A stretch of DNA of 64,000 nt from Thalassovita gelatinovora. GTDB taxonomy: Bacteria; Pseudomonadota; Alphaproteobacteria; Rhodobacterales; Rhodobacteraceae. A program made the translations under genes and the position numbers. The notes below the pieces were generated by a model. The model saw nothing but the letters and a program-made list of their open reading frames with translations, had not been told where the DNA came from and did not search any database. The DNA lies in the NCBI RefSeq assembly GCF_001458355.1, contig NZ_CYSA01000003.1:1-64000 (forward strand), written 5' to 3'. Each line of letters starts with the position of its first letter. Positions within the stretch are counted from its first letter, which is position 1. Below, one piece after another: positions 31,692 through 46,479 of this stretch.

Positions 31692-33797
31692 GTGCTGCGT
31701 GAACTTGAAATTATCGAATTGATTGCCAGCATCGCCAATAGCGCCGGAAGCGCGAGCGAGTCTTTTGAAAAATCCATGAGGATGATGGCCAAATTCCTCG
31801 GGTGGCCGGTCGGTTCATTTTTACGGGTCCAGAAGGAAAAAGGCGAAATACTGCTGGTTCCGACTGGGCAGGACTATGTGGCGGATGAAGAAAGATACGG
31901 CTATTTGCGGGAGCTTACCCGAAGTCGTATCTTCCGCCCTGGCGAGGGCCTTCCCGGGGTGACTTATATGCGCGGCGTACCGCAATGGTATGAAAATATC
32001 TATGAGCAGGATGATATTCCCATGCTGCGCAGTATAGAAAAACGCGACATTTATTCCGCGCTGATCGTTCCGATTTATGTTGGTTCTGAAATTGTCGCCA
32101 TTTTGGAATTCTATTCCGACCAAATCATTCCCCGGGATGCCTATCTGTTCGAATTGGTGCATCGTCTGGGGGTGCAATTGGGTCGCGTAGTGGAGCGGGA
32201 AAATACCACCAATGCATTGCTACAAAAACGTACCGCAGACGCTGCGAATAAGGCTAAATCGGTGTTTCTGGCCAATATGAGCCATGAAATCCGCACTCCG
32301 ATGAACGGGATCGTCGGCATGATAGAACTGCTCAGCCGTAGCTCGTTGAACGATCAGCAGATGCGAATGCTGGAAACGATTCAAGATTCTTCGTTTTTTC
32401 TTTTGGGGATCATCGACGACATTCTGGATGCTGCCAAGATCGAAGCCGGCCAGTTGAAAATCGAAAAGACCGAATTCGCACTGCTTGATGCAGTCGAACG
32501 CACCGCCGAAACCTTGGCCGTGCCAGCGCAGGAAAGCAATGTTACATTCATGATGGAAGTCGATCCGGGCCTGCCTGATTTCGTGTGCAGCGATCCGATC
32601 CGGCTGCGTCAGATTTTGCTGAACCTGCTCAGTAACGCGATCAAGTTTTCCAAGCACGATGATGGTCGTCAGGGCCTTGTCAATCTGAAGCTCTCTCCGG
32701 TCGAAGGGGAAGACGAGATCTGCTTTGAGGTGCGCGATGAAGGCATCGGGATGAGCCCGAGCACCATTGAGCGGATTTTCAAACCTTTCAATCAGGGCGA
32801 AGAATCGACAACCCGTCGGTTCGGAGGCACCGGATTGGGTTTGGTAATCACGCAAAACCTAGTCAATATGATGGACGGGACGTTGACGGTGCAAAGCGAA
32901 CCGGGAAAAGGGTCCTGTTTCAAGGTGGCGCTGCCAATGGAAGCCGTTCCTGAAAAGCAGACGTTGACCCCGGTCAACGGCGTTCAAATAGTGGTGATGG
33001 CCAGAAAGCCGATTTTTCACAATAGAATTAAGTCTTTTTTCGAACAATATGGGGCACGGGTTGAAACGCCTAAGACACGGTCCGAACTGATGGAATATGT
33101 CAGAAAGGCAGGGCCGGACACGGTCGTCATTCTGGCCTTGCAAACGATGGCGGAATGCGAAACCTTTAAACAGGCGGTTCAGCAGGAAAATCCAGAATGC
33201 CGATTGATATTCTTGGATTCATCACGCCAAAATCCCAAGGGGCTGCTGAATGAAACGCTTTATGTTTCCTATCGGTTCCCGGTACATTTTTCAGACATAT
33301 TAAGGGGGGCTGCGGTTCTGACCGGGCGGGTTTCTGCGGCAAGTGGTCAAGACGAAGCAGTCCGGGTTCCGGGTCCCAAAGATCAGACCATGCCGATGGA
33401 AAAAGACGATGACGCGCATATTCTGATTGTGGATGATAACGATTTGAACCTGTCGGTCTTGTCGCGGCAGATGGAATTGCTGGGGTATTCGTGCGAAACG
33501 GCGGTCAACGGTAGGGATGGGTTGGAAAAATGGAAACAAAACCGTCATCAATTGGTTCTGACCGATTGTCAGATGCCGGTGTCTGACGGTTTCGAAATGA
33601 CCCAGGAAATTCGCAATTTCGAATTTGAAAACTGTTTGAAGCCAGTTCCGGTGGTTGCCATTTCAGCAAGCGCTTTGGTTGACGAGGCCGAACGCTGCTT
33701 CAAATCGGGCATGAACGATTATCTGTCCAAACCGGTACAATTGAACGCGCTGCAATCGGTGATCGAAAAATGGAAGGACGGCATTGCCCCACACTGA
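31692..33797 (+). CDS. Hybrid sensor histidine kinase (GAF-HisKA-HATPase-REC), probably truncated by frameshift
   Basis: 701 residues from GTG 31692. The true gene probably started about 440 bases upstream with a PAS domain. A GAF-like domain covers about 5-175. HisKA is seen as [20 protein letters not shown] (phospho-acceptor His near 197), and the HATPase has [19 protein letters not shown] and [11 protein letters not shown] degenerate receiver-like stretch (about 415-540) precedes a proper receiver domain with VDDNDLN, acceptor Asp in LTDCQMP, and the final SKPVQ. No membrane helix is seen, so it is a cytoplasmic sensor. No partner regulator gene is adjacent. GTG 31692 has no clear ribosome-binding site, so expression of the truncated form is doubtful. 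Confidence 0.75.
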
Positions 33798-34917: not shown

Positions 34918-35294
34918 GCTGCTGGCTGGATTGAGAAAGCCCTGATTGCGATAACATTGTATGCCATTGTATGCTGTGCAAATTGTCGCAGGTGGTTCCG
35001 TTACGTCACTTGCTGTGGTGAATTCCCATTTTGCCACGATCTGATTTGGGAGCCCGGGTCGATTTCATTGACAGGGACTGATCTGTTTTTACAGGGCGTT
35101 TCCTCGATTTCTGGAATATATTTACAAAGCAGATAATAATGAGAGTAATAATTTACATCAAAATCATTGTATTTCATCTACTTATTTCTTTGTTTTCATT
35201 TTTTGCTATAATGGGCTTCATCATGTTTGCAGGTCGCATTCATGTGCGGGGCCAAACTTGGTCCCCCGTGTAATACCCAAGGGAGGAGCCTTGA
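34918..35294 (+). promoter_or_regulatory. AT-rich upstream region of acs with a TATAAT box
   Basis: This 377-bp gap contains no gene. From about 35090 to 35215 it is far more AT-rich than its surroundings. TATAAT occurs at 35207-35212, a perfect -10-like hexamer about 83 bases before the acs start; no good -35 box is seen at 17 bp. GGGAGGAG at 35281-35288 is the acs ribosome-binding site. The AT-rich tract could bind an activator or a nucleoid protein. Confidence 0.5.
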
Positions 35295-37262
35295 ATGACC
35301 GCCGGGAACCCAGCTCGAACCATCGAAAAATCTCTGTCCGAAACTTTCGGGGAAACCGCCCATGTTGATGCTGCGCGTTATGACGCGATGTATGCGGCGT
35401 CGCTTGCTGATCCCGAAGCGTTCTGGCGCGACCAGGGGCAGCGCGTGGAGTGGATCAAGCCCTTTACCAAGGTCAAGAACACCAGCTTTGCGCCCGGCGC
35501 GATCGACGTCAAATGGTACGAAGACGGCACGCTGAACGTTGCCGCCAACTGCATCGACCGGCATCTGGCGACCCGCGCCGATCAGACCGCGATCATCTGG
35601 GAACCCGACGATCCCGAAGAAGCCGCCCAGCACATCACCTATGCCGAACTGCACCGCCGCACCTGCCGGATGGCCAACATCCTGGAAGATCTCGGCGTGC
35701 GCAAGGGCGACCGGGTGGTGATCTACCTGCCGATGATCCCCGAAGCGGCCTATGCGATGCTGGCCTGCGCCCGGATCGGCGCCATTCATTCGATCGTCTT
35801 CGCCGGGTTTTCGCCCGACGCGTTGTCGGCGCGGATCAACGGCTGCGACGCCAAGGTGATCATCACCGCCGACCACGCCCCGCGCGGCGGCCGCAAGACC
35901 CCGCTGAAGGCCAATGCCGACGCCGCCCTGCTGCATTGCAAGGACAGCGTCAAATGCCTGGTGGTCAAACGCACCGGCGATCAGACGTCCTGGGTCGACG
36001 GGCGCGACTTCGACTATAACGAAATGGCGCTGGAAGCCGACGATTATTCCAAGCCGGCCGAAATGGACGCCGAAGATCCGTTGTTCATCCTTTACACCTC
36101 CGGGTCGACCGGCCAGCCCAAGGGCGTGGTCCACAGCACCGGTGGCTATCTGGTCTATGCCGCGCTGACCCATGAGGTCACCTTCGATTACCATGACGGC
36201 GACATTTTCTGGTGTACGGCGGATGTGGGTTGGGTCACCGGCCACAGCTATATCGTCTATGGCCCGCTGGCCAATGGCGCCACCACGGTGATGTTCGAAG
36301 GGGTGCCGACTTGGCCCGATGCGGGCCGGTTCTGGGCGGTGTGCGAAAAGCACAAGGTCAATCAGTTTTACACCGCGCCGACCGCGATTCGGGCGCTGAT
36401 GGGCCAGGGCGAAGAATGGGTCAACCGCTATGATCTGAGCGATCTGAAACTGCTGGGCACGGTCGGCGAACCGATCAACCCCGAAGCCTGGAACTGGTAT
36501 AACGACCATGTCGGCAAGGGCCGCTGCCCGATCGTCGACACCTGGTGGCAGACCGAAACCGGCGGTCACATGATGACGCCGCTGCCGGGCGCGCATGACC
36601 TGAAGCCGGGGTCGGCGATGAAGCCGTTCTTTGGCGTCAAGCCGGTGGTCCTGGACCCGCATACCGGTCAGGAAATCGACGGCAACGGGGTCGAGGGTGT
36701 GCTGTGCATCGCCGATAGCTGGCCCGGCCAGATGCGCACCATCTGGGGCGATCACGACCGGTTCGAAAAGACCTATTTCGCCGATTACAAAGGCTATTAC
36801 TTTGCCGGTGATGGGTGCCGCCGCGATGCGGATGGCGATTACTGGATCACCGGCCGGGTCGATGACGTGATCAACGTGTCGGGCCACCGGATGGGCACGG
36901 CGGAAGTGGAATCGGCGCTGGTGGCGCATCCGCAAGTGGCCGAAGCCGCGGTGGTGGGCTATCCGCATGACATCAAGGGCCAGGGCATCTATTGCTATGT
37001 CACCTTGATGAACGGGGTCGAACCCACCGAGGCGCTCTACAAGGAATTGCGCGCCTGGGTCCGCACCGAAATCGGTCCGATCGCCAGCCCCGACCTGATC
37101 CAGTGGGCCCCCGGCCTGCCGAAAACCCGGTCCGGCAAGATCATGCGCCGGATCCTGCGCAAAATCGCCGAAAACGACTATGGCAGCCTCGGCGACACAT
37201 CGACCCTCGCCGACCCATCCGTCGTCGAAGACCTGATCGAAAACCGGATGAATAAGGGGTAA
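35295..37262 (+). CDS. acs: Acetate--CoA ligase (acetyl-CoA synthetase)
   Basis: 655-residue AMP-forming enzyme: acetate + ATP + CoA to acetyl-CoA + AMP + PPi, the high-affinity acetate assimilation route. The adenylation motif [15 protein letters not shown] is near residue 265. [27 protein letters not shown] and the C-terminal [14 protein letters not shown] follow; the Lys in SGKIMRR is the site of regulatory acetylation in the family. It starts a block: an adenylate kinase starts 3 bp downstream, then the symporter subunits. The promoter lies in the AT-rich region upstream. Confidence 0.97.
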
Positions 37263-37265
37263 GAC

Positions 37266-37949
37266 ATGGATTCTGTTGTGAAAACCACACCTGCTGTTCT
37301 GATCCTTCTGGGACCTCCGGGGGCAGGCAAAGGCACCCAAGCAAGGATTTTAGAGGACAAGTTCGGATTGGTGCAACTGTCCACCGGGGATTTGTTGCGT
37401 ACCGCCGTGGCCGCCGGGACCGAAGCCGGATTGCGGGCCAAATCCGTCATGGACGCGGGCGGTCTGGTCAGTGATGACATCGTCATCGCCATTTTGCGCG
37501 ACCGTCTGACCGCGACCGATTGCGTGCGTGGCATCATCCTTGACGGGTTCCCGCGCACCACTGTGCAGGCCGAAGCGCTGGACGATCTGTTGGCGGAGAC
37601 CGGACAGAAAATCAACGCGGCGATCAGTCTGGAAGTGGATGACGCTGCGATGGTGGCCCGGATTTCCGGCCGTTACACCTGCGCCGGTTGCGGCGAAGGC
37701 TATCACGACGCTTTCAAGCAGCCACAACAGGCGGGAATTTGTGACAAATGTGGCGGCACGGAGTTCAAGCGGCGGGCGGATGACAATGCTGCAACCGTCG
37801 GCCAGCGGTTGCAGGCCTATCACGCTCAGACGGCCCCTTTGATCGCCTATTACGACAGCAAGGGTGTTTTGCAACGGATCGACGCGATGGGGGACATCGC
37901 TGCGATAGCAACAGAGCTTACGACCATGGTCGAAAATGCCATGACGTGA
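37266..37949 (+). CDS. adk: Adenylate kinase with a Cys4 LID (acs-associated)
   Basis: 227-residue kinase: ATP + AMP to 2 ADP. The P-loop is GPPGAGKGTQAR near residues 16-27, followed by STGDLLR and ILDGFPRT. The long LID carries CAGCG and CDKCGG, a Cys4 set that typically binds zinc. It starts 3 bp after acs, so it is co-transcribed, and its job is most simply to recycle the AMP made by Acs. A housekeeping adk is expected elsewhere beside ribosomal protein genes; that is inference. Confidence 0.93.
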   Translation: MDSVVKTTPAVLILLGPPGAGKGTQARILEDKFGLVQLSTGDLLRTAVAAGTEAGLRAKSVMDAGGLVSDDIVIAILRDRLTATDCVRGIILDGFPRTTVQAEALDDLLAETGQKINAAISLEVDDAAMVARISGRYTCAGCGEGYHDAFKQPQQAGICDKCGGTEFKRRADDNAATVGQRLQAYHAQTAPLIAYYDSKGVLQRIDAMGDIAAIATELTTMVENAMT

Positions 37950-38008
37950 GTTACAGCCCCCGGCGGAACGGACCGGCGGGGTTCAGGAGGAAGAGGAGGA
38001 CCCGCGAA

Positions 38009-38281
38009 ATGGCGGATCAACACACTGCAAAAGCATCGGATGGAGCCTATTGGGCTGCCAATCTGCGCATCATTCTAATCAGCCTGGTGATCTGGGCCGT
38101 GGTTTCGTTCGGGTTCGGCATTCTGCTGCGCCCGTTATTGTCAGGGATCGCCGTCGGCGGAGCCGATCTGGGATTCTGGTTCGCGCAGCAGGGCAGTATC
38201 CTGGTATTCCTGGCGCTGATCTTCAACTACGCGTGGCGCATGAACAAGCTGGACCGCGAACACGGCGTGGAGGAGGAATAA
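38009..38281 (+). CDS. DUF4212 small subunit of a sodium/solute symporter
   Basis: 90-residue protein with two membrane helices (about 18-40 and 55-75), containing AYWAANLRIILISLVIWAVV and the conserved FGFGILLRPLL. This DUF4212 family accompanies VC_2705-type symporters as a small subunit, much as YjcH does with ActP. ATG 38009 is preceded by two purine-rich ribosome-binding stretches (AGGAGGAAGAGGAGGA). The symporter gene starts 3 bp after the stop. Confidence 0.88.
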   Translation: MADQHTAKASDGAYWAANLRIILISLVIWAVVSFGFGILLRPLLSGIAVGGADLGFWFAQQGSILVFLALIFNYAWRMNKLDREHGVEEE

Positions 38282-38284
38282 GTC

Positions 38285-40072
38285 ATGGATCAGTTTACCA
38301 TCAACCTGCTGTTCGTGGGCGCGTCTTTCGCGCTTTATATCGGTATTGCGATTTGGGCCCGCGCCGGGTCCACGTCGGAATTTTACGCCGCAGGGCGCGG
38401 TGTGCATCCGGTTACCAACGGGATGGCCACGGCGGCCGACTGGATGTCGGCGGCTTCTTTCATCTCGATGGCGGGGCTTATCGCTTTTACCGGCTATGAC
38501 AATTCGTCCTACCTGATGGGGTGGACCGGCGGCTATGTGCTGCTGGCGCTGCTGCTGGCGCCTTATCTGCGCAAATTCGGCAAATTCACCGTGTCGGAAT
38601 TTATCGGCGACCGATTCTACAGCCCAACCGCGCGACTGGTTGCTGTGGTCTGTCTGATCGTGGCTTCGACCACCTATGTGATCGGTCAGATGACCGGCGT
38701 CGGCGTTGCCTTTGGCCGTTTTTTGGAAGTGGAGAACACCACCGGGTTGCTGATCGGTGCCGTGATCGTGTTCGCCTATGCGGTGTTCGGCGGCATGAAA
38801 GGGGTGACTTATACTCAGGTTGCGCAATATTGCGTGCTGATCCTAGCCTATACGATCCCTGCGATTTTCATCTCGTTGCAGTTGACCGGCAACCCGATCC
38901 CGGCTCTGGGACTGTTTGGCGATCACGCGGCCAGTGGTGAACCTTTGCTTGCCAAGCTGGATGCCATCGTCAAGGAACTGGGGTTCAGCGAATATACCGC
39001 GCATCATGCCGATACGTTGAACATGGTTTTGTTCACCTTGTCGCTGATGATCGGGACGGCGGGTTTGCCGCATGTGATCATGCGCTTTTTCACCGTGCCG
39101 AAAGTTGCGGATGCCCGTTGGTCGGCCGGTTGGGCGCTGGTTTTCATCGCGCTGCTTTATCTGACCGCCCCGGCGGTTGGTGCGATGGCGCGTCTGAATA
39201 TCACTGAAATGATGTGGCCCAATGGGGGCATCAATGGTGGTGCCGTGACCGTTCAGCAGATCGAAAACGACCAACGCTATGCCTGGATGGCAACTTGGGA
39301 AAAAACCGGGTTGTTGGGCTGGGAAGACAAGAACGGCGATGGTGCGATCCAGTACTATAATGATCAGAACGCCGATCTTCAGGCGATGGCCGCCGAAAAG
39401 GGGTGGACCGGGAACGAGTTGACCAATTTCAACCGTGACATCCTGGTTTTGGCCAATCCCGAGATTGCCAACCTTCCGGGTTGGGTGATCGGTCTGGTCG
39501 CTGCCGGTGGTTTGGCCGCTGCGCTATCGACTGCTGCCGGTTTGTTGCTGGCGATTTCGTCCGCTGTGTCGCACGATCTGATCAAGGGGGCGATCAATCC
39601 GAATATTTCGGAAAAAAGCGAATTGCTGTCGGCCCGCATCGCCATGGCAGTGGCAATTTGCGTGGCGACCTATCTGGGGCTGAACCCCCCGGGGTTCGCG
39701 GCGCAGACTGTGGCTCTGGCCTTTGGTCTGGCGGCGGCTTCGATCTTCCCGGCGCTGATGATGGGGATCTTTTCGACCAAGATCAACAACACCGGTGCAG
39801 TGGCGGGCATGTTGGCTGGTCTGATCGTGACTCTGGTCTATATCTTCCTGCACAAGGGGTGGTTCTTTGTTCCTGACACCAACAGTTTCTCGGATGCTGA
39901 TCCGCTGTTGGGGACCGTGAAGTCGACCTCGTTCGGAGCCATTGGCGCGGCGATCAACTTCGCTGTGGCCTATCTGGTCGCAGGAATGACCAAGGAGACG
40001 CCGGAAGAGATCAAGGCCCTGGTTGAAAGTGTGCGCATCCCTCGTGGCGCAGGCACTGCCCAGGATCATTGA
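38285..40072 (+). CDS. Sodium:solute symporter, VC_2705/ActP-like (acetate uptake)
   Basis: 595-residue member of the SSS family with about 13 membrane helices. It starts MDQFTINLLFVGASFALYIG. Conserved parts include the FYAAGRGVHPVTNGMATAAD loop and LPHVIMRFFTVPKV. Operon context with acs and the DUF4212 subunit points to acetate or another short monocarboxylate as substrate. A hydrophilic loop rich in Asp and Gln near 325-370 carries a DKNGDGAIQYY stretch that resembles an EF-hand. A strong terminator follows at 40115. Confidence 0.92.
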   Translation: MDQFTINLLFVGASFALYIGIAIWARAGSTSEFYAAGRGVHPVTNGMATAADWMSAASFISMAGLIAFTGYDNSSYLMGWTGGYVLLALLLAPYLRKFGKFTVSEFIGDRFYSPTARLVAVVCLIVASTTYVIGQMTGVGVAFGRFLEVENTTGLLIGAVIVFAYAVFGGMKGVTYTQVAQYCVLILAYTIPAIFISLQLTGNPIPALGLFGDHAASGEPLLAKLDAIVKELGFSEYTAHHADTLNMVLFTLSLMIGTAGLPHVIMRFFTVPKVADARWSAGWALVFIALLYLTAPAVGAMARLNITEMMWPNGGINGGAVTVQQIENDQRYAWMATWEKTGLLGWEDKNGDGAIQYYNDQNADLQAMAAEKGWTGNELTNFNRDILVLANPEIANLPGWVIGLVAAGGLAAALSTAAGLLLAISSAVSHDLIKGAINPNISEKSELLSARIAMAVAICVATYLGLNPPGFAAQTVALAFGLAAASIFPALMMGIFSTKINNTGAVAGMLAGLIVTLVYIFLHKGWFFVPDTNSFSDADPLLGTVKSTSFGAIGAAINFAVAYLVAGMTKETPEEIKALVESVRIPRGAGTAQDH

Positions 40073-40114
40073 TCCCAGGATCGGACCTGCCTCCCCGGGT
40101 CCGATCCGCAAAAC

Positions 40115-40148
40115 AACATCCCGTCCGGTTTTTCCGGGCGGGATGTTT
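40115..40148 (+). terminator. Terminator after the symporter gene
   Basis: AACATCCCGTCCGG (40115-40128) and CCGGGCGGGATGTT (40134-40147) form a 14-bp stem with one wobble pair, a TTTTT loop and only a short T tail. A second stem, GATCGGACC/GGTCCGATC, lies just before it (about 40078-40106). Together they should reduce read-through from acs-adk-symporter into the next gene. Confidence 0.75.
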
Positions 40149-40281
40149 GCGAATTCAGCTCGATAGTCGAAAGAAGATGGCTGGGCCTTTCGCAGGCATT
40201 TCTGATGAAACAGCCCAGTCGGGTTGCGGCCCGGTGGAATTGACGTAAACCTGTTCCTACCTTCTGATTACGGAGCGTCCC

Positions 40282-42105
40282 ATGCCTGCAAGCCTACCTG
40301 ACCTGCATCGCTTCCTGTCTTCGGTTCATCCCTATGATGCAATGCCGGTAGAGGAATTGGCGCGGCTGGTTGAGGCATTCGAACTTCGCAAGTTCAGTGG
40401 TGGTCAGCAGGTCTATGGCTTTGGCGAGACGTTGGAGGGGCTTTATCTGATCCATTCCGGCCAGATCGAAATCAGGGATGAAAACGATGTCCCGGTTTCT
40501 CTGCTCGGGATGCGTAACAGTTTTGCCGAACGTGGATTACAGCGCGATGGCATCGCGGCAACCACGGCCCGGGCGCTGGACGATGTGGTGCTGCTGTTGT
40601 TGCCGAAAGCAGCCTTCGAAACGCTGATCAAAACCAATGATGCGGCGCGGCGGTTTTTCGATCGGTCGCGTGCGCCTCGACGCAAAACAAATGATCTGGC
40701 GACCAGTCGGGTTGATGAATTGATGACTCGAAACCCGGTGATTTGTGTGCCGGATACCACGGTGCAGCAGGCCGCAAAGATCATGCGCGACAAACGGATT
40801 TCAGCGCTTTGCGTGACCGAGGGCGAACACTTGGTGGGGATCGTGAGTGTCCGCGATCTGGCGGCGCGTGTGTTGGCCGCGGCGCTGGCCTTGGATACCC
40901 CCGTTGGCGCGATCATGACGGCCACCCCTTTGACATTGCCCCCATCTGCCATCGGATCGGATGTGTTGCATGCGATGATGGAGCGCAAGATCAACCATAT
41001 CCCGATCTGTGAATCGGGTCGATTGATCGGCATGGTCAGTCAGACCGATCTGACCCGGTTTCAAGCCGTGTCTTCGGCCGAATTGGTTTCGGAAATCGCC
41101 CATGCCGATACCGCAGAAGACATGGCCACGGTCACGGCCCGCATACCGCAATTATTGGTGCAACTGGTCGGCGCGGGCAACCGGCACGAAGTTGTGACCC
41201 GGCTGATCACCGACGTGGCCGATACTGCCACCCGCCGTTTGCTGACATTGGCCGAAGAAAAACTTGGCCCGCCGCCGGTGCCCTATCTGTGGCTGGCCTG
41301 CGGTAGCCAGGGACGGCAGGAACAGACAGGGGCCAGCGATCAGGATAATTGCCTGTTTCTGGACGATGCGGTGACGGACGAACAGATGCCCTATTTCGTG
41401 GCGCTGGCGCAATTCGTCTGTGACGGGCTGAATACCTGTGGCTATGTCTATTGCCCGGGCGATATGATGGCGACCAACCCGAAATGGTGTCAGCCCGTCC
41501 GAATTTGGCGTGAATATTTTCACCGCTGGATCGAACAACCGGATCCGATGGCACAGATGCTGGCCAGCGTGATGTTCGATCTGCGTCCGATTGGCGGTGC
41601 GCTGACGCTGTTTGCCGATTTGCAGCGCGAAACGCTGAGCAAGGCCAGTGCAAATTCGATTTTTGTGGCCCATATGGTCGGCAATTCCTTGAAACACACG
41701 CCGCCATTGGGTCTGCTGCGCGGGTTTGCTACGATCCGGTCGGGTGAACATAAAAACATGCTTGATATGAAACATAACGGGGTTGTGCCGGTGGTTGATC
41801 TGGGGCGCATATATGCGCTGATGGGGCAGGTCGAACCGGTCAACACACGGGCCCGTCTGGAACGGGCGGCCGGGGCAGGGGGGCTTAGCCCGTCAGGTGC
41901 ACGCGACCTGTTGGATGCCTATGATCTGATCGCCGAAAACAGGTTGGCCCATCAGGCCCGTCAGGTGCGGCGCGGTGCGGCACCCGACAACTATATGGAA
42001 CCGACGGAATTGTCGGATCTGGAGCGCAGCCATCTGCGCAATGCATTCGTGGTGATAAAATCGCTGCAATCGGCCTTGGGTCACAATCGCAGTGTTGGCG
42101 GTTAA
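40282..42105 (+). CDS. cNMP-binding / CBS / DUF294 nucleotidyltransferase-like regulator
   Basis: 607-residue cytoplasmic protein. Residues about 15-130 look like a cyclic-nucleotide-binding fold (FSGGQQVYGFGETLEGLYLI). Two CBS motifs follow at about 150-270 (ICVPDTTVQQAAKIMRDKRI, HIPICESGRLIGMVSQTDLT), which usually bind adenine nucleotides. Then comes a DUF294 nucleotidyltransferase domain with the GlnD-like ACGSQGRQEQTGASDQDN, and a helical DUF294 C-terminal domain. Target and product are unknown. It follows the acetate symporter, and its stop is 22 bp before the next gene. Confidence 0.88.
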   Translation: MPASLPDLHRFLSSVHPYDAMPVEELARLVEAFELRKFSGGQQVYGFGETLEGLYLIHSGQIEIRDENDVPVSLLGMRNSFAERGLQRDGIAATTARALDDVVLLLLPKAAFETLIKTNDAARRFFDRSRAPRRKTNDLATSRVDELMTRNPVICVPDTTVQQAAKIMRDKRISALCVTEGEHLVGIVSVRDLAARVLAAALALDTPVGAIMTATPLTLPPSAIGSDVLHAMMERKINHIPICESGRLIGMVSQTDLTRFQAVSSAELVSEIAHADTAEDMATVTARIPQLLVQLVGAGNRHEVVTRLITDVADTATRRLLTLAEEKLGPPPVPYLWLACGSQGRQEQTGASDQDNCLFLDDAVTDEQMPYFVALAQFVCDGLNTCGYVYCPGDMMATNPKWCQPVRIWREYFHRWIEQPDPMAQMLASVMFDLRPIGGALTLFADLQRETLSKASANSIFVAHMVGNSLKHTPPLGLLRGFATIRSGEHKNMLDMKHNGVVPVVDLGRIYALMGQVEPVNTRARLERAAGAGGLSPSGARDLLDAYDLIAENRLAHQARQVRRGAAPDNYMEPTELSDLERSHLRNAFVVIKSLQSALGHNRSVGG

Positions 42106-42127
42106 CTACCGGCGGGAGAGGAAAAAG

Positions 42128-42652
42128 ATGTTTCTGGAACTGATTGCAACCTTTGTGGCCGGGATTGCGGCGGCGGGCGTGATGTTGTTGCTGAACAAGG
42201 GCATGGGCGGACGGTTGCCGCGCTGGCTGATCCCGGTTGCCGCCGGAGCAGCGATGATCGCGGCGACGATTTCCAATGAATATGGCTGGTATGGAAGGAC
42301 AACGTCTGGTCTGCCCTCTGAAATTGTTGTGGCCCAAACTGTTGAAAGCAAGGCCATGTATCGCCCCTGGACCTATCTGCATCCGTTTGTCACCCGGTTC
42401 ATGGCCGTCGATACCGCGTCCATCCGAACCAATCCTGCGGTGCCGGATCAGAAAATGGTCGACCTACTGTTTTTTGGCCGCTGGTCGCCGGTCCGATCAT
42501 TGCCGGTTCTGGTCGATTGCGCCAACCGCCGTCAGGCGTTGCTGGCCGCAGGTGCGGCATTCGACGAGGCCGGGCAGGTGACTGATGCTGTTTGGTCCGC
42601 TCTTGCACCTGAACATGGGCTATTCGTGGCTTTATGCGTCGAGGCGAACTGA
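42128..42652 (+). CDS. Uncharacterised membrane protein of the DUF294-DnaQ block
   Basis: 174 residues with two N-terminal membrane helices (MFLELIATFVAGIAAAGVML and WLIPVAAGAAMIAATIS), then a soluble part of about 110 residues with no recognised motif. ATG 42128 has GGGAGAGG 7-14 bases before it. Its stop overlaps the next start as TGATG, so it is coupled to the DnaQ-like gene. It is conserved in this place as far as I recall for the order, but no function is known; a membrane partner for the exonuclease is an inference. Confidence 0.65.
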   Translation: MFLELIATFVAGIAAAGVMLLLNKGMGGRLPRWLIPVAAGAAMIAATISNEYGWYGRTTSGLPSEIVVAQTVESKAMYRPWTYLHPFVTRFMAVDTASIRTNPAVPDQKMVDLLFFGRWSPVRSLPVLVDCANRRQALLAAGAAFDEAGQVTDAVWSALAPEHGLFVALCVEAN

Positions 42653-44064
42653 TGTTCCTGCATCTTGGCCTGCGTCTTCGTATCTTCCTTTTCTTCGCTC
42701 TGGTCGCACTTGGCGGAATCGCCGCGATCTTTGCTGGGCTTTATGTCGGTTATCTCAAGGCGCTGTCGGGGGATCTGTTGTCGGCTTTCGTGCAGGCCGG
42801 AACGATTGCGGCTTTCGGTATTCTGGGGTTGGCGGCGGGGGTCTGGCTGCTGTTCGACGAACATGTCGCCAAACCGATCGAACGTCTTTCGGCGCGGCTG
42901 CGCGTTGGGGCGCATGCCGGGGTGTCCGGCGGCATAGACGATGGCGCTGCGCGGTATCTTGGTGATCTGGGGCCTGCTGCCGAAGCGGTGACGCGGCAAC
43001 TGTCGGAAAACGCCCTCGACAGCGCGGGTGAAATCGCCCTGAAGACAGAACAATTGCGACAGGAAATGAACCGGTTGACCGCGCTTTTGTCCGATATCCC
43101 GGTGGCGATGGTGCTGATCAATGCCCGGCACCAGATCGTGCTTTACGATTCCCAATCGGCAGCGGTGCTTGGGCAGGTCCACACGCCCCGCCTGAACGCA
43201 TCGATTTTCGATTATTTCAAACGCGCTGCCATTGAAACGGCATGGGCCAAGCTGATCAAAACCGGTCAGGAGGTGGCGTTTACTGCCAATGGCGCTGAGG
43301 GTGAACAGGATTTCGAACTGCGGATGAAGCCGCTGGACCAAGGGTCGGGCTATATGCTGATTATCGACGAAGCCCATGCGACGATAGAACCCGAAGCCGC
43401 GCGACCGCTGATTTACGATTTCGATCTGCTGCAACTGGCAGAAGGCAGTTCAGCCGATGAAACCCGCTTGTCCGATCTGACTTTCGTGGTGTTTGACAGC
43501 GAAACCACGGGGTTGCTGCCGCATAAGGACGAAATTGTGCAGCTTGGCGCGCTGCGCGTGGTGCGGGGCAAGATCGTTCAGGGTGAAGCGCTGGATATGC
43601 TGGTAAACCCGATGATGCCGATCCCGCCGGGGTCGACAAGGGTGCACGGGATCACCGACGCGATGGTGGTGGATGCGGCCCCGATTGACCGCGCGGTGAA
43701 TGCATTTCACAAATTCGCCCATGACGCGGTGATCGTTGCCCATAACGCCCCGTTCGACATGGCCTTCATGCACCGGCATGGCAATCGGCTGGGGCTGAGT
43801 TGGGACCATCCGGTGTTGGATACGGTTCTGGCCTCGGCGGTGCTGTTCGGGGCCAGTGAGAGCCACACATTGGACGCGCTTTGTGATCGGTTAGGGGTGG
43901 AAATACCCGTGTCGCAGCGCCACAGCGCGATGGGGGATGCGCGTGCAACGGCGTTGGTATTGTGCCGCATGCTGCCGATGCTGGAAGCGCGTGGCATTGC
44001 GACCTTCGGAAACCTTCTGGCAGAGATGCGCAAGCATGGTCGAATGCTGAAAGACCTGAATTAA
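42652..44064 (+). CDS. Membrane-anchored PAS-DnaQ 3'-5' exonuclease
   Basis: 470 residues. Two membrane helices (about 8-32 and 42-66) with a short loop are followed by a HAMP-like linker (DEHVAKPIERLSARLR), a coiled-coil stretch, and a PAS-like domain (about 145-240, SDIPVAMVLINARHQIVLYD). The C-terminal half is a DEDDh exonuclease of the DnaQ superfamily: VVFDSETTGLLP (first Asp/Glu pair), VIVAHNAPFDMAFMH, and HSAMGDARATALV with the catalytic His and Asp. A sensor layout joined to a nuclease is unusual; RNA, DNA or small oligonucleotide signals could be the substrate. It is the last gene of the acetate block. Confidence 0.85.
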   Translation: MFLHLGLRLRIFLFFALVALGGIAAIFAGLYVGYLKALSGDLLSAFVQAGTIAAFGILGLAAGVWLLFDEHVAKPIERLSARLRVGAHAGVSGGIDDGAARYLGDLGPAAEAVTRQLSENALDSAGEIALKTEQLRQEMNRLTALLSDIPVAMVLINARHQIVLYDSQSAAVLGQVHTPRLNASIFDYFKRAAIETAWAKLIKTGQEVAFTANGAEGEQDFELRMKPLDQGSGYMLIIDEAHATIEPEAARPLIYDFDLLQLAEGSSADETRLSDLTFVVFDSETTGLLPHKDEIVQLGALRVVRGKIVQGEALDMLVNPMMPIPPGSTRVHGITDAMVVDAAPIDRAVNAFHKFAHDAVIVAHNAPFDMAFMHRHGNRLGLSWDHPVLDTVLASAVLFGASESHTLDALCDRLGVEIPVSQRHSAMGDARATALVLCRMLPMLEARGIATFGNLLAEMRKHGRMLKDLN

Positions 44065-44364: not shown

Positions 44365-45102
44365 CTAGTCTTCTTCCGTCTTGGCGTCGCCGCGAAAACC
44401 GGTGGCGACAACGAATTTTTCCGAACTGTCTGATCGCGACGCGGGCGGTTTCACATTCACCACCTTGGTGAATTTTTGTTTCAGCAGCTTTTGCAACTCG
44501 CCCTCGGCGCCACCGGCCAGAACCTTGGCGACAAAAGTCCCGCCATCTTCCAGCACGTCGAAGGCGAAATAGGCCGCCGCTTCGCACAAGGCGATGATGC
44601 GCAAATGGTCGGTCTGTTTATGCCCCGAAGCCGAAGCGGCCATATCCGACATTACCACATCGGCCTTACCGCCCAGCCAATCCTTGACCTTCTGGTCGGC
44701 ATCGTCTTCCATGAAATCCAACTGATGGGTTTCGGCCCCGGCAATCGGTTCGACCTCTTGTAGGTCGACGCCCAGAATTGTCCCGACTTTCTTGCCCTGT
44801 TTTTCGCCCAGCGCATTGATACGGCCCACCGCGACCTGACACCAGCCGCCCGGGGCGCAGCCCAGATCGACCACCCGTGCACCGGGTACGAGGAAACGGA
44901 ATTTGTCGTCCAGTTCCAGTATCTTGAAGGCCGCGCGTCCGCGATATCCTTCGGCCTTGGCGCGTTTGACATAAGGGTCGTTCAACTGACGCTGCAACCA
45001 CAGGGTCGAACTCATCTTGCGCCCGCGGGCGGTCTTGACCTTTACGGTCAGGTCACGCTGACCGCGTCCTGATGTGTTTTTGGTGCCTGGTTTCTTTGCC
45101 AT
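44365..45102 (-). CDS. rlmE: 23S rRNA 2'-O-methyltransferase RlmE (FtsJ/RrmJ)
   Basis: 245-residue SAM-dependent enzyme that methylates U2552 (E. coli numbering) in the 50S A-loop. SAM-binding motif [19 protein letters not shown] is near residue 73. The K-D-K-E catalytic set is visible ([47 protein letters not shown]). A basic N-terminal stretch ([16 protein letters not shown]) binds RNA. It lies 73 bp downstream of the Ppx gene in the same direction. Confidence 0.93.
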
Positions 45103-45175
45103 GGTCTCAACTATTCGTTTTATGGGGCCGGAGGTGAATTTTCTGGCCCGGAATCAAAGTGGTTTAGGTCTTTTG

Positions 45176-46288
45176 TCAGAACGGGCCGTCTTCCAGAACC
45201 CCGTCCGCGCTCATTTGAGCATATAGCAGACCTTCGCGCAGGCCGCGATCAGCCACTGACAACCGGTCGGTGGGCCAGCAACGCAGCAGTGCCTGAAGGA
45301 TTGCGGCGCCCGACATGATCAGCGCCTGCCGGTCCTGACCGATGCGCGGATCGCGGCGCCGACCTTGCGGGCCCAGCGTCAGATAGTTGCGGATCACCTT
45401 GTCGATTTGATCCGAGGACATGCGCAGCCCGTCTACTTTCGTCCGGTCATAACGTTTCAACCCAAGATGCGACGCCGCCACCGTGGTCACGGTGCCGCTG
45501 GTGCCGACGATCTGAAACCCTTCGCGCACCTGTTCATTGGCATAGGGTGTAAATTCGGACAGGTTTTCTTCGAAAAACCAGCTCATCAGCGCGAACCGGG
45601 CGGAATCGTCTTCGACATCGCGGAACTGATCGCGCAACGTCGCCACCCCCAGCGGCACACTGATCCAATCGACCACCTTGGCAGCCGGAAAGGGGCTGTC
45701 GCTGGGATGGAAACCGGCATGCAGCCGCATGATTGCCCGCGGTCGATCCCGGTTGGGGACCGATCTCAGGTCGATCCAGACAAGTTCGGTCGATCCGCCG
45801 CCGATATCCACCACGAGCAACTGTTCGGTCTTGGTCGACACCAAAGGAGCACAAGAAATCACGGCCAGCCGAGCTTCTTCCTCGGGCTGGATGATTTCCA
45901 GTTGCAACCCGGTGTCCCGGCGGACCTGACGGATGAATTCGCGGGAATTCTTGGCGCGGCGACAGGCCTCGGTGGCCACCAGACGCATGCGCGTGACTTT
46001 GTGGCGCTTCAGCTTTTGCTGACAGATGCGCAATGCCTGAGTGGTGCGCGCCATCGACGCCCGGCTGAGACGGCCGGTCGTTTCCAAGCCCGATCCCAGT
46101 TGGACGGACTTGGAAAAACTATCTACCACATGAAACTGGCTGCCCTTCGGTTGGGCAATCAGCATGCGACAACTATTGGTCCCCAGATCCAGCGCAGCAT
46201 AAAGCTCAGCTGTATCCGGCGGTTTCGGCGCGGGGCTCTCAACCGGTTTTGGGAATGCGCCCGCACCTTTGGGACGCTTGGGCGCCAT
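45176..46288 (-). CDS. Ppx/GppA phosphatase family protein
   Basis: 370-residue ASKHA-fold enzyme acting on polyphosphate or guanosine pentaphosphate. The N-terminal phosphate loop is ALDLGTNSCRMLIA near residue 31. LSRASMARTTQALRICQQKL and DIGGGSTELVWIDL are the further signatures, and the C-terminal part VADRGLREGLLY is family typical. ATG 46288 has GGAGGG upstream; the longer open frame was rejected. It does not have the long C-terminal domain of full Ppx proteins. The exact substrate cannot be told. Confidence 0.88.
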   Translation of the reverse strand: MAPKRPKGAGAFPKPVESPAPKPPDTAELYAALDLGTNSCRMLIAQPKGSQFHVVDSFSKSVQLGSGLETTGRLSRASMARTTQALRICQQKLKRHKVTRMRLVATEACRRAKNSREFIRQVRRDTGLQLEIIQPEEEARLAVISCAPLVSTKTEQLLVVDIGGGSTELVWIDLRSVPNRDRPRAIMRLHAGFHPSDSPFPAAKVVDWISVPLGVATLRDQFRDVEDDSARFALMSWFFEENLSEFTPYANEQVREGFQIVGTSGTVTTVAASHLGLKRYDRTKVDGLRMSSDQIDKVIRNYLTLGPQGRRRDPRIGQDRQALIMSGAAILQALLRCWPTDRLSVADRGLREGLLYAQMSADGVLEDGPF

Positions 46289-46479
46289 AACTACACGCCC
46301 TCCATTTCGAGTTACCCTAAAGGTAGTGACAAGTTTGTCATTGCGCAAGCGCCACGTCGGCAAATCTGCCGCGATGCAGTATTTGGTCGCTCGTCGTCGC
46401 GGGAATGTCGAAAACCGTCCTCTAGGGGTAAATCTGCCGGTTTAAGCATGAAGGTGTACAAAAGGGGAATCATACGACC

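Follow-up and report, generated by a model that had tools for sequence, protein, structure and literature searches.

What a nucleotidyltransferase-like protein, a membrane protein and a nuclease might do next to genes for acetate use is the question raised by a seven-gene block in Thalassovita gelatinovora, within the 64,000-nucleotide stretch of contig NZ_CYSA01000003.1 analyzed here (the window). Group 1 of the block comprises acs, an adenylate kinase gene (adk) and genes for a DUF4212 small subunit and a Na+/solute symporter (consecutive genes spaced by 3 nt or overlapping), and group 2 comprises the genes of a cNMP-CBS-CBS-DUF294-DUF294_C protein (DUF294 protein), the membrane protein and a DEDDh 3'-5' exonuclease. 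An earlier note, made from the sequence, had described these seven open reading frames (ORFs) as two closely packed groups that share a strand, and ORF calls and coordinates bore this out for the + strand (Table 1). We tentatively read the block, with confidence clearly short of even, as an operon for Na+-coupled uptake and activation of a monocarboxylate, with a two-enzyme control module behind it, in which the DUF294 protein would write a nucleotidyl mark and the exonuclease would remove it.

Linkage of these genes was scored in 150 evenly chosen Pseudomonadota genomes, over about 10 kb on each side of a locus where contigs allowed. Strong DUF294 matches were found in 54 of the 149 genomes besides that of the window, and provided 77 ORFs outside the window in 22 families; matches weaker than 1e-30 were left out as GlnD-like, per-genome counts were tallied by hand, and locus counts are phylogenetically unweighted. 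An exonuclease (>30 bits) was located within 1.5 kb downstream on the same strand at 65 of the 77 loci (20 of the 22 families). An SSS symporter scoring above 200 bits was detected within 10 kb at 49 loci (18 families), 36 of them with the symporter within 1.5 kb on the same strand. Also found near the 77 loci were DUF4212 (26 loci), acs (21 loci, nine families) and the membrane-protein gene (eight loci, four families), while adk was near DUF294 at three loci, all of the window's own family. Carriers of the BCCT type were within 5 kb at six loci from three families, an association for which the literature searched held no report. The transporter partners of DUF294 include two SSS types and BCCT, which fits a transporter-side target. 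Examined from the symporter side, VC_2705-type symporters were found in 35 of the 150 genomes, one per genome and the window's included. Of the 28 genomes that had both genes (window excluded), 23 had DUF294 and the symporter no more than 10 kb apart, compared to 0.27 expected; six further symporter genomes had no strong DUF294 match. By these counts, chance is excluded as the cause of the linkage. The genes do travel together, as the earlier note had supposed, and are not found mostly apart from transporters of this kind.

Similar associations were observed among relatives gathered with the window's own DUF294 protein as query, a sample biased by that query to close relatives. Among 36 such loci (L005-L040, alphaproteobacteria by name), the membrane-protein gene was present at 36, the symporter gene at 35 and the exonuclease gene at 34, with the missing cases being L027, where the stretch begins inside the DUF294 gene, and L034 and L039, where no exonuclease is in the stretch. 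At the same loci, some of them cut by contig ends, adk was found at 23 and acs at 22. Beyond the Pseudomonadota, two Bacteroidota loci of one genus had the order acs-DUF294-exonuclease, with a DUF4212-symporter pair 3.4 kb upstream of acs. At four other distant loci (L041-L043 and L046), DUF294-exonuclease genes were present with no DUF4212, acs or strong symporter match in the stretch. In a separate arrangement, three genomes of three families (L090, L091 and L094) carried two DUF294-exonuclease pairs head to head, adjoining DUF4212-symporter genes, as if duplicated.

That the two enzymes form a unit is further indicated by at least seven natural exonuclease-CBS-DUF294-DUF294_C fusions (L117, L152, L154, L156, L157, L158 and L160), none with a report in the literature searched. 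The L117 protein (712 aa) is ordered RNase_T-CBS-CBS-DUF294-DUF294_C and its gene adjoins DUF4212-SSS genes; it was identified with Pfam as well as with our own profiles. The other six were identified with our own profiles among 30 loci (of 48 matches, those fetched and checked) from the order of the L117 genome. Of the remaining 24 loci in that survey, 19 had symporter, DUF294 and membrane-protein genes in order and five were arranged otherwise.

The catalytic residues of both enzymes are conserved. Nucleotidyltransferases of the GlnD/GlnE type carry a motif of GS, D-x-D and a third Asp, and this motif is present in the DUF294 proteins: G341, S342, R345, D353 and D355 were found in all 120 aligned sequences and D433 in 118 of 120. 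Adenine-nucleotide CBS domains carry a ribose-ligating [ST]xxD motif. This was also present in the DUF294 protein (as residues), with the first CBS domain having Thr at position 189 in 109 of 112 sequences (Ser in the window) and Asp at 192 in 106 of 112, such that the nucleotide-ligating residues that the earlier note's sensing idea calls for were found to be kept. AcuB structures with AMP, ADP, ATP or Ap4A were among the fold matches of the protein. By contrast, the sensing of cAMP put forward in that note was not supported. In cAMP-binding cNMP domains the phosphate-binding cassette has a conserved Glu and a conserved Arg, whereas here Glu was present in 33 of 99 sequences and Arg reached no more than 32 of 98 in any of columns 91-97 examined. 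No cNMP match was detected in the two short DUF294 forms examined nor in fusion L117, and an 853-aa frame (L077:9203-11761, - strand) has Cache and PAS sensors ahead of DUF294-DUF294_C, with no exonuclease scored nearby. Because of these short forms and the Cache-PAS-DUF294 frame, we regard DUF294 as an output enzyme attached to varied sensors. The DUF294 gene is single copy in the window's genome, and the closest named relatives of its protein are from Thalassovita and Thalassobius (75% identity).

For the exonuclease, the catalytic motif of the DEDDh group is D, E, D, H and D, and this was found here: D288, E290, H430 and D435 were present in all 110 sequences with a letter at these positions, and position 375 was D in 84, E in 25 and I in one. 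Its best PDB relatives were PolC and DnaQ nucleases. Of the name PAS-DnaQ exonuclease, used in the earlier note, the PAS half had no significant match in this protein. With the PAS profile, the window exonuclease gave nothing at E 0.001; two of 11 relatives matched, with a best E of 0.19, and two of four longer homologues matched at E 0.002-0.003, below the cut-off. A profile search for PAS against PDB sequences likewise gave nothing significant (best E 0.083). A PAS-like linker is possible. Measured stop to stop, exonuclease frames span about 200-300 aa at the short end and about 460-840 aa at the long end. By hydropathy, the window protein has two hydrophobic N-terminal segments and is probably membrane-anchored. 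DnaQ epsilon and oligoribonuclease cleave pNP-TMP, an aryl nucleotide phosphodiester (PMC6390093, PMC7694242), and this activity within the same nuclease group makes cleavage of a nucleotidyl-tyrosine-type bond chemically plausible.

The transporter of the block was named ActP-type in the earlier note and was instead found to be a member of TIGR03648/VC_2705, with a TIGR03647 small subunit encoded directly upstream and both above their cut-offs (Table 1). ActP identity was ruled out by scores of 153 bits for TIGR02711 (cut-off 1099) and 191 for PRK09395 (cut-off 750). In a whole-genome search, this symporter was the sole gene above the SSF cut-off. Its substrate is probably acetate, judging from the linkage to acs only. 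The usual adk has secY on one side and an rpsM-like gene on the other; the adk of the block is an extra copy, 53% identical to it. The symporter C-tail (RxPxGxGxAxxH-like) was considered as a DUF294-specific modification site and rejected, as E. coli ActP and the symporters of three genomes with no strong DUF294 match (L121-L123) share it and some linked symporters (L090, L091, L094 and L117) lack it. As in E. coli acs-yjcH-actP, acs in the window precedes genes for a small membrane protein and for an SSS symporter; the window differs in symporter subfamily and small subunit, and no DUF294 or exonuclease gene is annotated in the 10 kb examined in E. coli.

The membrane protein encoded between the two enzymes belongs to a family with no name in the libraries searched, as it had no Pfam or NCBIfam match. 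Its AlphaFold2 model (mean pLDDT 95.3) has two helices followed by a beta-rich domain, and in 31 aligned members two Cys, a Pro-Trp pair and further Pro residues are invariant; the Cys pair may form a disulfide. The loop joining the helices has a mean net charge of +3.4 and its flanks are negative, which by the positive-inside rule places the beta-rich domain probably in the periplasm. By profile search (up to 23 first-pass candidates scored per genome), the gene was found in 12 of the 150 genomes, including the window's, and in all 12 it was 0.1-2.2 kb from a VC_2705-type symporter gene (distances tallied by hand); in the eight that fall outside the window's class, it was directly 3' of the symporter gene. 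The other 23 symporter genomes had no match to the membrane protein, which is therefore not essential to the symporter. The membrane protein probably serves as an accessory to the symporter rather than to the enzyme pair. The literature searched held no report of such a protein beside a VC_2705-type symporter. A fold search of its model gave no match below E 0.001, and a weak Foldseek likeness to Haemophilus influenzae protein E (E 0.017, TM score by query 0.36) was left unused.

The enzyme pair itself is widespread and is part of a Pseudomonas short-chain-acid regulon, although the papers seen offer no mechanism. In P. putida, pp_0354 and pp_0353 are organized as an operon (PMC9927547), and these genes and P. 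aeruginosa PA3233/PA3232 (assigned by published neighbourhood) are MxtR/ErdR (CrbS/R) targets that encode a CBS signalling protein and, after it, an RNase_T exonuclease. The same arrangement was found in the window, where a cNMP-CBS-DUF294 protein precedes an RNase_T exonuclease; this kinship rests on the domain descriptions of the papers and not on alignment. The pair adjoins actP and yjcH in PAO1 and is near glcB in P. putida (PMC9927547, PMC8402216). Where PAO1 uses ActP/YjcH, the window uses a VC_2705/DUF4212 symporter and, unlike the Pseudomonas pair, has hydrophobic N-terminal segments on the exonuclease, a membrane-protein gene in between and acs-adk upstream. P. fluorescens Pflu5625 (DUF294-type) is in the CrbS/R regulon and was predicted to act by nucleotidylation (PMC5715377). 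The statement of the earlier note that no mechanism had been worked out is right, although the pair was already described as a CrbS/R target and nucleotidylation already suggested. The 'writer' idea is in print, while this analysis adds the 'eraser' role and a target on the side of the transporter; taken together, the system represents a variant form of a regulon module that has been described in part, and the evidence for a nucleotidyltransferase-exonuclease unit is new. No paper uniting acetate, DUF294, exonuclease and symporter was found in the literature search.

In the mechanism that we propose, the CBS pair of the DUF294 protein would read adenine nucleotides (AMP, ADP, ATP or ApnA), and in one CBS state its GlnD/GlnE-like nucleotidyltransferase would attach a nucleotide to a transporter-side target (the symporter, its small subunit or the linked membrane protein) and thereby lower uptake. 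The DEDDh exonuclease, probably membrane-anchored here, would cleave the phosphodiester mark and restore uptake. In the window's family, Acs would yield AMP and the dedicated Adk would recycle it. Without the remover the transporter would be locked off, as in transporter loss, and without the writer it would simply be on. Growth of P. putida on pyruvate is delayed by loss of pp_0353 or actP-I and not of pp_0354 (PMC9927547), the pattern expected of an inhibitory mark made by the DUF294 protein and removed by the exonuclease, and transposon fitness data cited in the same paper have pp_0353 and actP-I alike on 5 mM acetate. These asymmetric phenotypes fit a writer/eraser pair without proving it. 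Resemblance to GlnD/GlnE extends from the GS and D-x-D residues to a helical C-terminal domain, as DUF294_C was grouped with the GlnD/GlnE-type domains (PMC3710099); unlike those enzymes, the sensor is a CBS pair with a degenerate cNMP domain and the candidate remover is a DEDDh nuclease, separate or N-terminally fused. A further parallel is AcuB (CBS-ACT), a CBS protein linked to control of acetyl-CoA synthetase that binds Ap4A and differs in that it inhibits a deacetylase (PMC13039410). More broadly, DUF294 and DEDDh enzymes, sometimes fused, might constitute a reversible nucleotidylation switch of Na+-coupled transporters (SSS, perhaps BCCT) that responds to CBS-sensed adenine nucleotides and has the nuclease as protein de-nucleotidylase, with the symporter of this lineage also having a periplasm-facing accessory protein; in this general form we consider the proposal doubtful. 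If true, transporters would gain a layer of covalent control and DnaQ-type nucleases a new role. The fusions and the asymmetric published phenotypes make the question of a switch open to epistasis, and the model predicts that additional deletion of DUF294 would rescue an exonuclease mutant.

Several observations weigh against this proposal. Twelve of the 77 DUF294 loci had no exonuclease directly downstream (one being fusion L117), and 28 had no SSS symporter above 200 bits within 10 kb (among them L086, which has another SSF type). A scan of the neighbours of 14 of these 28 loci (58 of 84 ORFs) revealed only BCCT and signalling themes among 25 of 73 families. No conserved target residue tied to DUF294 emerged from the symporter C-tail comparison, and ATTTACA, a box discussed below, was upstream of the DUF294 gene at 0 of 36 loci. 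The second CBS domain has a weaker motif than the first (Thr 55 and Ser 19 of 114; Asp 84 of 116), the best 50 matches listed in a whole-protein fold search of the DUF294 protein were of CBS, cNMP and IMPDH type with no GlnE or GlnD, and no demonstrated nucleotidylation by any DUF294 protein was found in the literature searched. Published deletions also speak against simple control of acetate entry as suggested in the earlier note, at least as judged by growth, which was measured rather than uptake: deletion of pp_0353 or pp_0354 left growth on 20 mM acetate unaffected (PMC9927547), and deletion of pflu5625 or actP, alone or combined, had no or a negligible effect on acetate growth, with double and triple mutants impaired only when pflu0110 was among the deletions, on data not shown there (PMC5715377). 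In P. putida the pyruvate phenotype is a delay with the same final density, and the pair is not adjacent to actP-I (PMC9927547). Many pairs away from any scored symporter, mild phenotypes and the lack of a known modified target together count against the writer/remover proposal.

The main rival, which we also rate as doubtful, is control at the RNA level, in which the exonuclease would trim or degrade transcripts of carbon or transporter genes and the DUF294 protein would tail RNA 3' ends. Kinship of the exonuclease to PolC and DnaQ nucleases suits this idea, and the authors of PMC9927547 themselves propose mRNA decay by pp_0353. The grouping of DUF294_C with GlnD/GlnE-type domains argues the other way, and RNA-level control alone leaves unexplained the recurrent transporter neighbours and the absent pyruvate phenotype of DUF294 loss. 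It is unlikely that the pair instead makes and destroys a small nucleotide signal acting on the transporter: a nucleotidyltransferase and a phosphodiester-cleaving nuclease with CBS sensing domains would be suited to this, and AcuB offers a precedent in its binding of Ap4A, but no such DUF294 product was found in the literature searched, the HEPN-like domain at the C-terminus hints at an acceptor of larger size and the hydrophobic segments of the exonuclease better fit a local target. Similarly improbable is plain co-regulation, under which short-chain acids would induce the neighbouring genes jointly and these would have neither a physical nor a catalytic connection with the transporter. PA3232-PA3235 are up about 16-fold together during growth on propionate (PMC9765439) and Pflu5625 is in the CrbS/R regulon, as this reading would have it; against it are the seven fusions, the recurrence of the genes in different families and, together with acs, at two Bacteroidota loci of one genus, and the transporter partners of different types. 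The same PA study reports PA3233-PA3235 down about 2-fold after sudden propionate addition and growth on propionate without defect after PA3234 deletion. Direct gating of acetate entry by an Acs-AMP-Adk loop, in which the DUF294 protein would read cAMP and adenine nucleotides, agrees with the gene order, adk and acs counts of the window's relatives and with the first CBS motif, yet is very unlikely given the unconserved cNMP pocket, the confinement of adk near DUF294 to one family, an acs count of 21 of 77 and no acetate growth phenotype in Pseudomonas.

Table 1. Features of the seven-gene block and its flanking regulatory stretches, with positions in the window.
Feature	Position	Strand	Basis
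Two ATTTACA boxes 5' of acs, candidate regulator site	35120..35157	+	Box recurrence upstream of related acs genes
acs, acetate--CoA ligase (AMP-forming)	35295..37262	+	TIGR02188, 1016 bits (cut-off 725)
Second adenylate kinase (adk), directly 3' of acs	37266..37949	+	NF001380, 273 bits (cut-off 251)
DUF4212 sodium/substrate symporter small subunit	37946..38281	+	TIGR03647, 111 bits (cut-off 26)
VC_2705-family Na+/solute symporter	38285..40072	+	TIGR03648, 815 bits (cut-off 321)
Intergenic stretch separating groups 1 and 2; two strong hairpins, ~40078-40107 and ~40116-40146	40073..40281	+	Fold z -5.3
cNMP-CBS-CBS-DUF294-DUF294_C protein, candidate nucleotidyl 'writer'	40282..42105	+	Pfam; nucleotidyltransferase residues conserved
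Two-helix membrane protein, two invariant Cys	42128..42652	+	Start by homology; AlphaFold2 model; symporter linkage
DEDDh 3'-5' exonuclease, candidate 'eraser'	42634 or 42652..44064	+	RNase_T, 114 bits; catalytic residues; hydropathy

Homology placed the start of the membrane-protein gene at the position given in Table 1 rather than at 42092. The 209 nt separating the groups were found to be more stable when folded than all 200 shuffles (0 equally stable), and these strong hairpins suggest that groups 1 and 2 may be separate transcription units; a simple scan detected no terminator-like or promoter-like site within the 209-nt stretch. The ATTTACA box occurred upstream of 12 of 22 related acs genes (start codons picked automatically), compared to a mean of 0.9 and a maximum of 4 in 200 shuffles, and differs from the inverted repeat published for CrbR. 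A regulator box shared by both groups was rejected, since ATTTACA was found 5' of acs only.

Immediately around the block, a GAF hybrid histidine kinase is encoded 5' (31692-33797, by Pfam) and, downstream on the opposite strand (44365-46363), there are genes that we take to encode an FtsJ/RlmE-like methyltransferase and a Ppx/GppA-like phosphatase. Elsewhere in the window's genome (3.9 Mb in 30 contigs), an 894-aa histidine kinase with an extended N-terminal region is encoded next to a response regulator (L168:862-3546, - strand, contig C25). Its frame matches SSF weakly (E 5e-4, below cut-off), and it is possibly an SLC5-type sensor kinase resembling CrbS.

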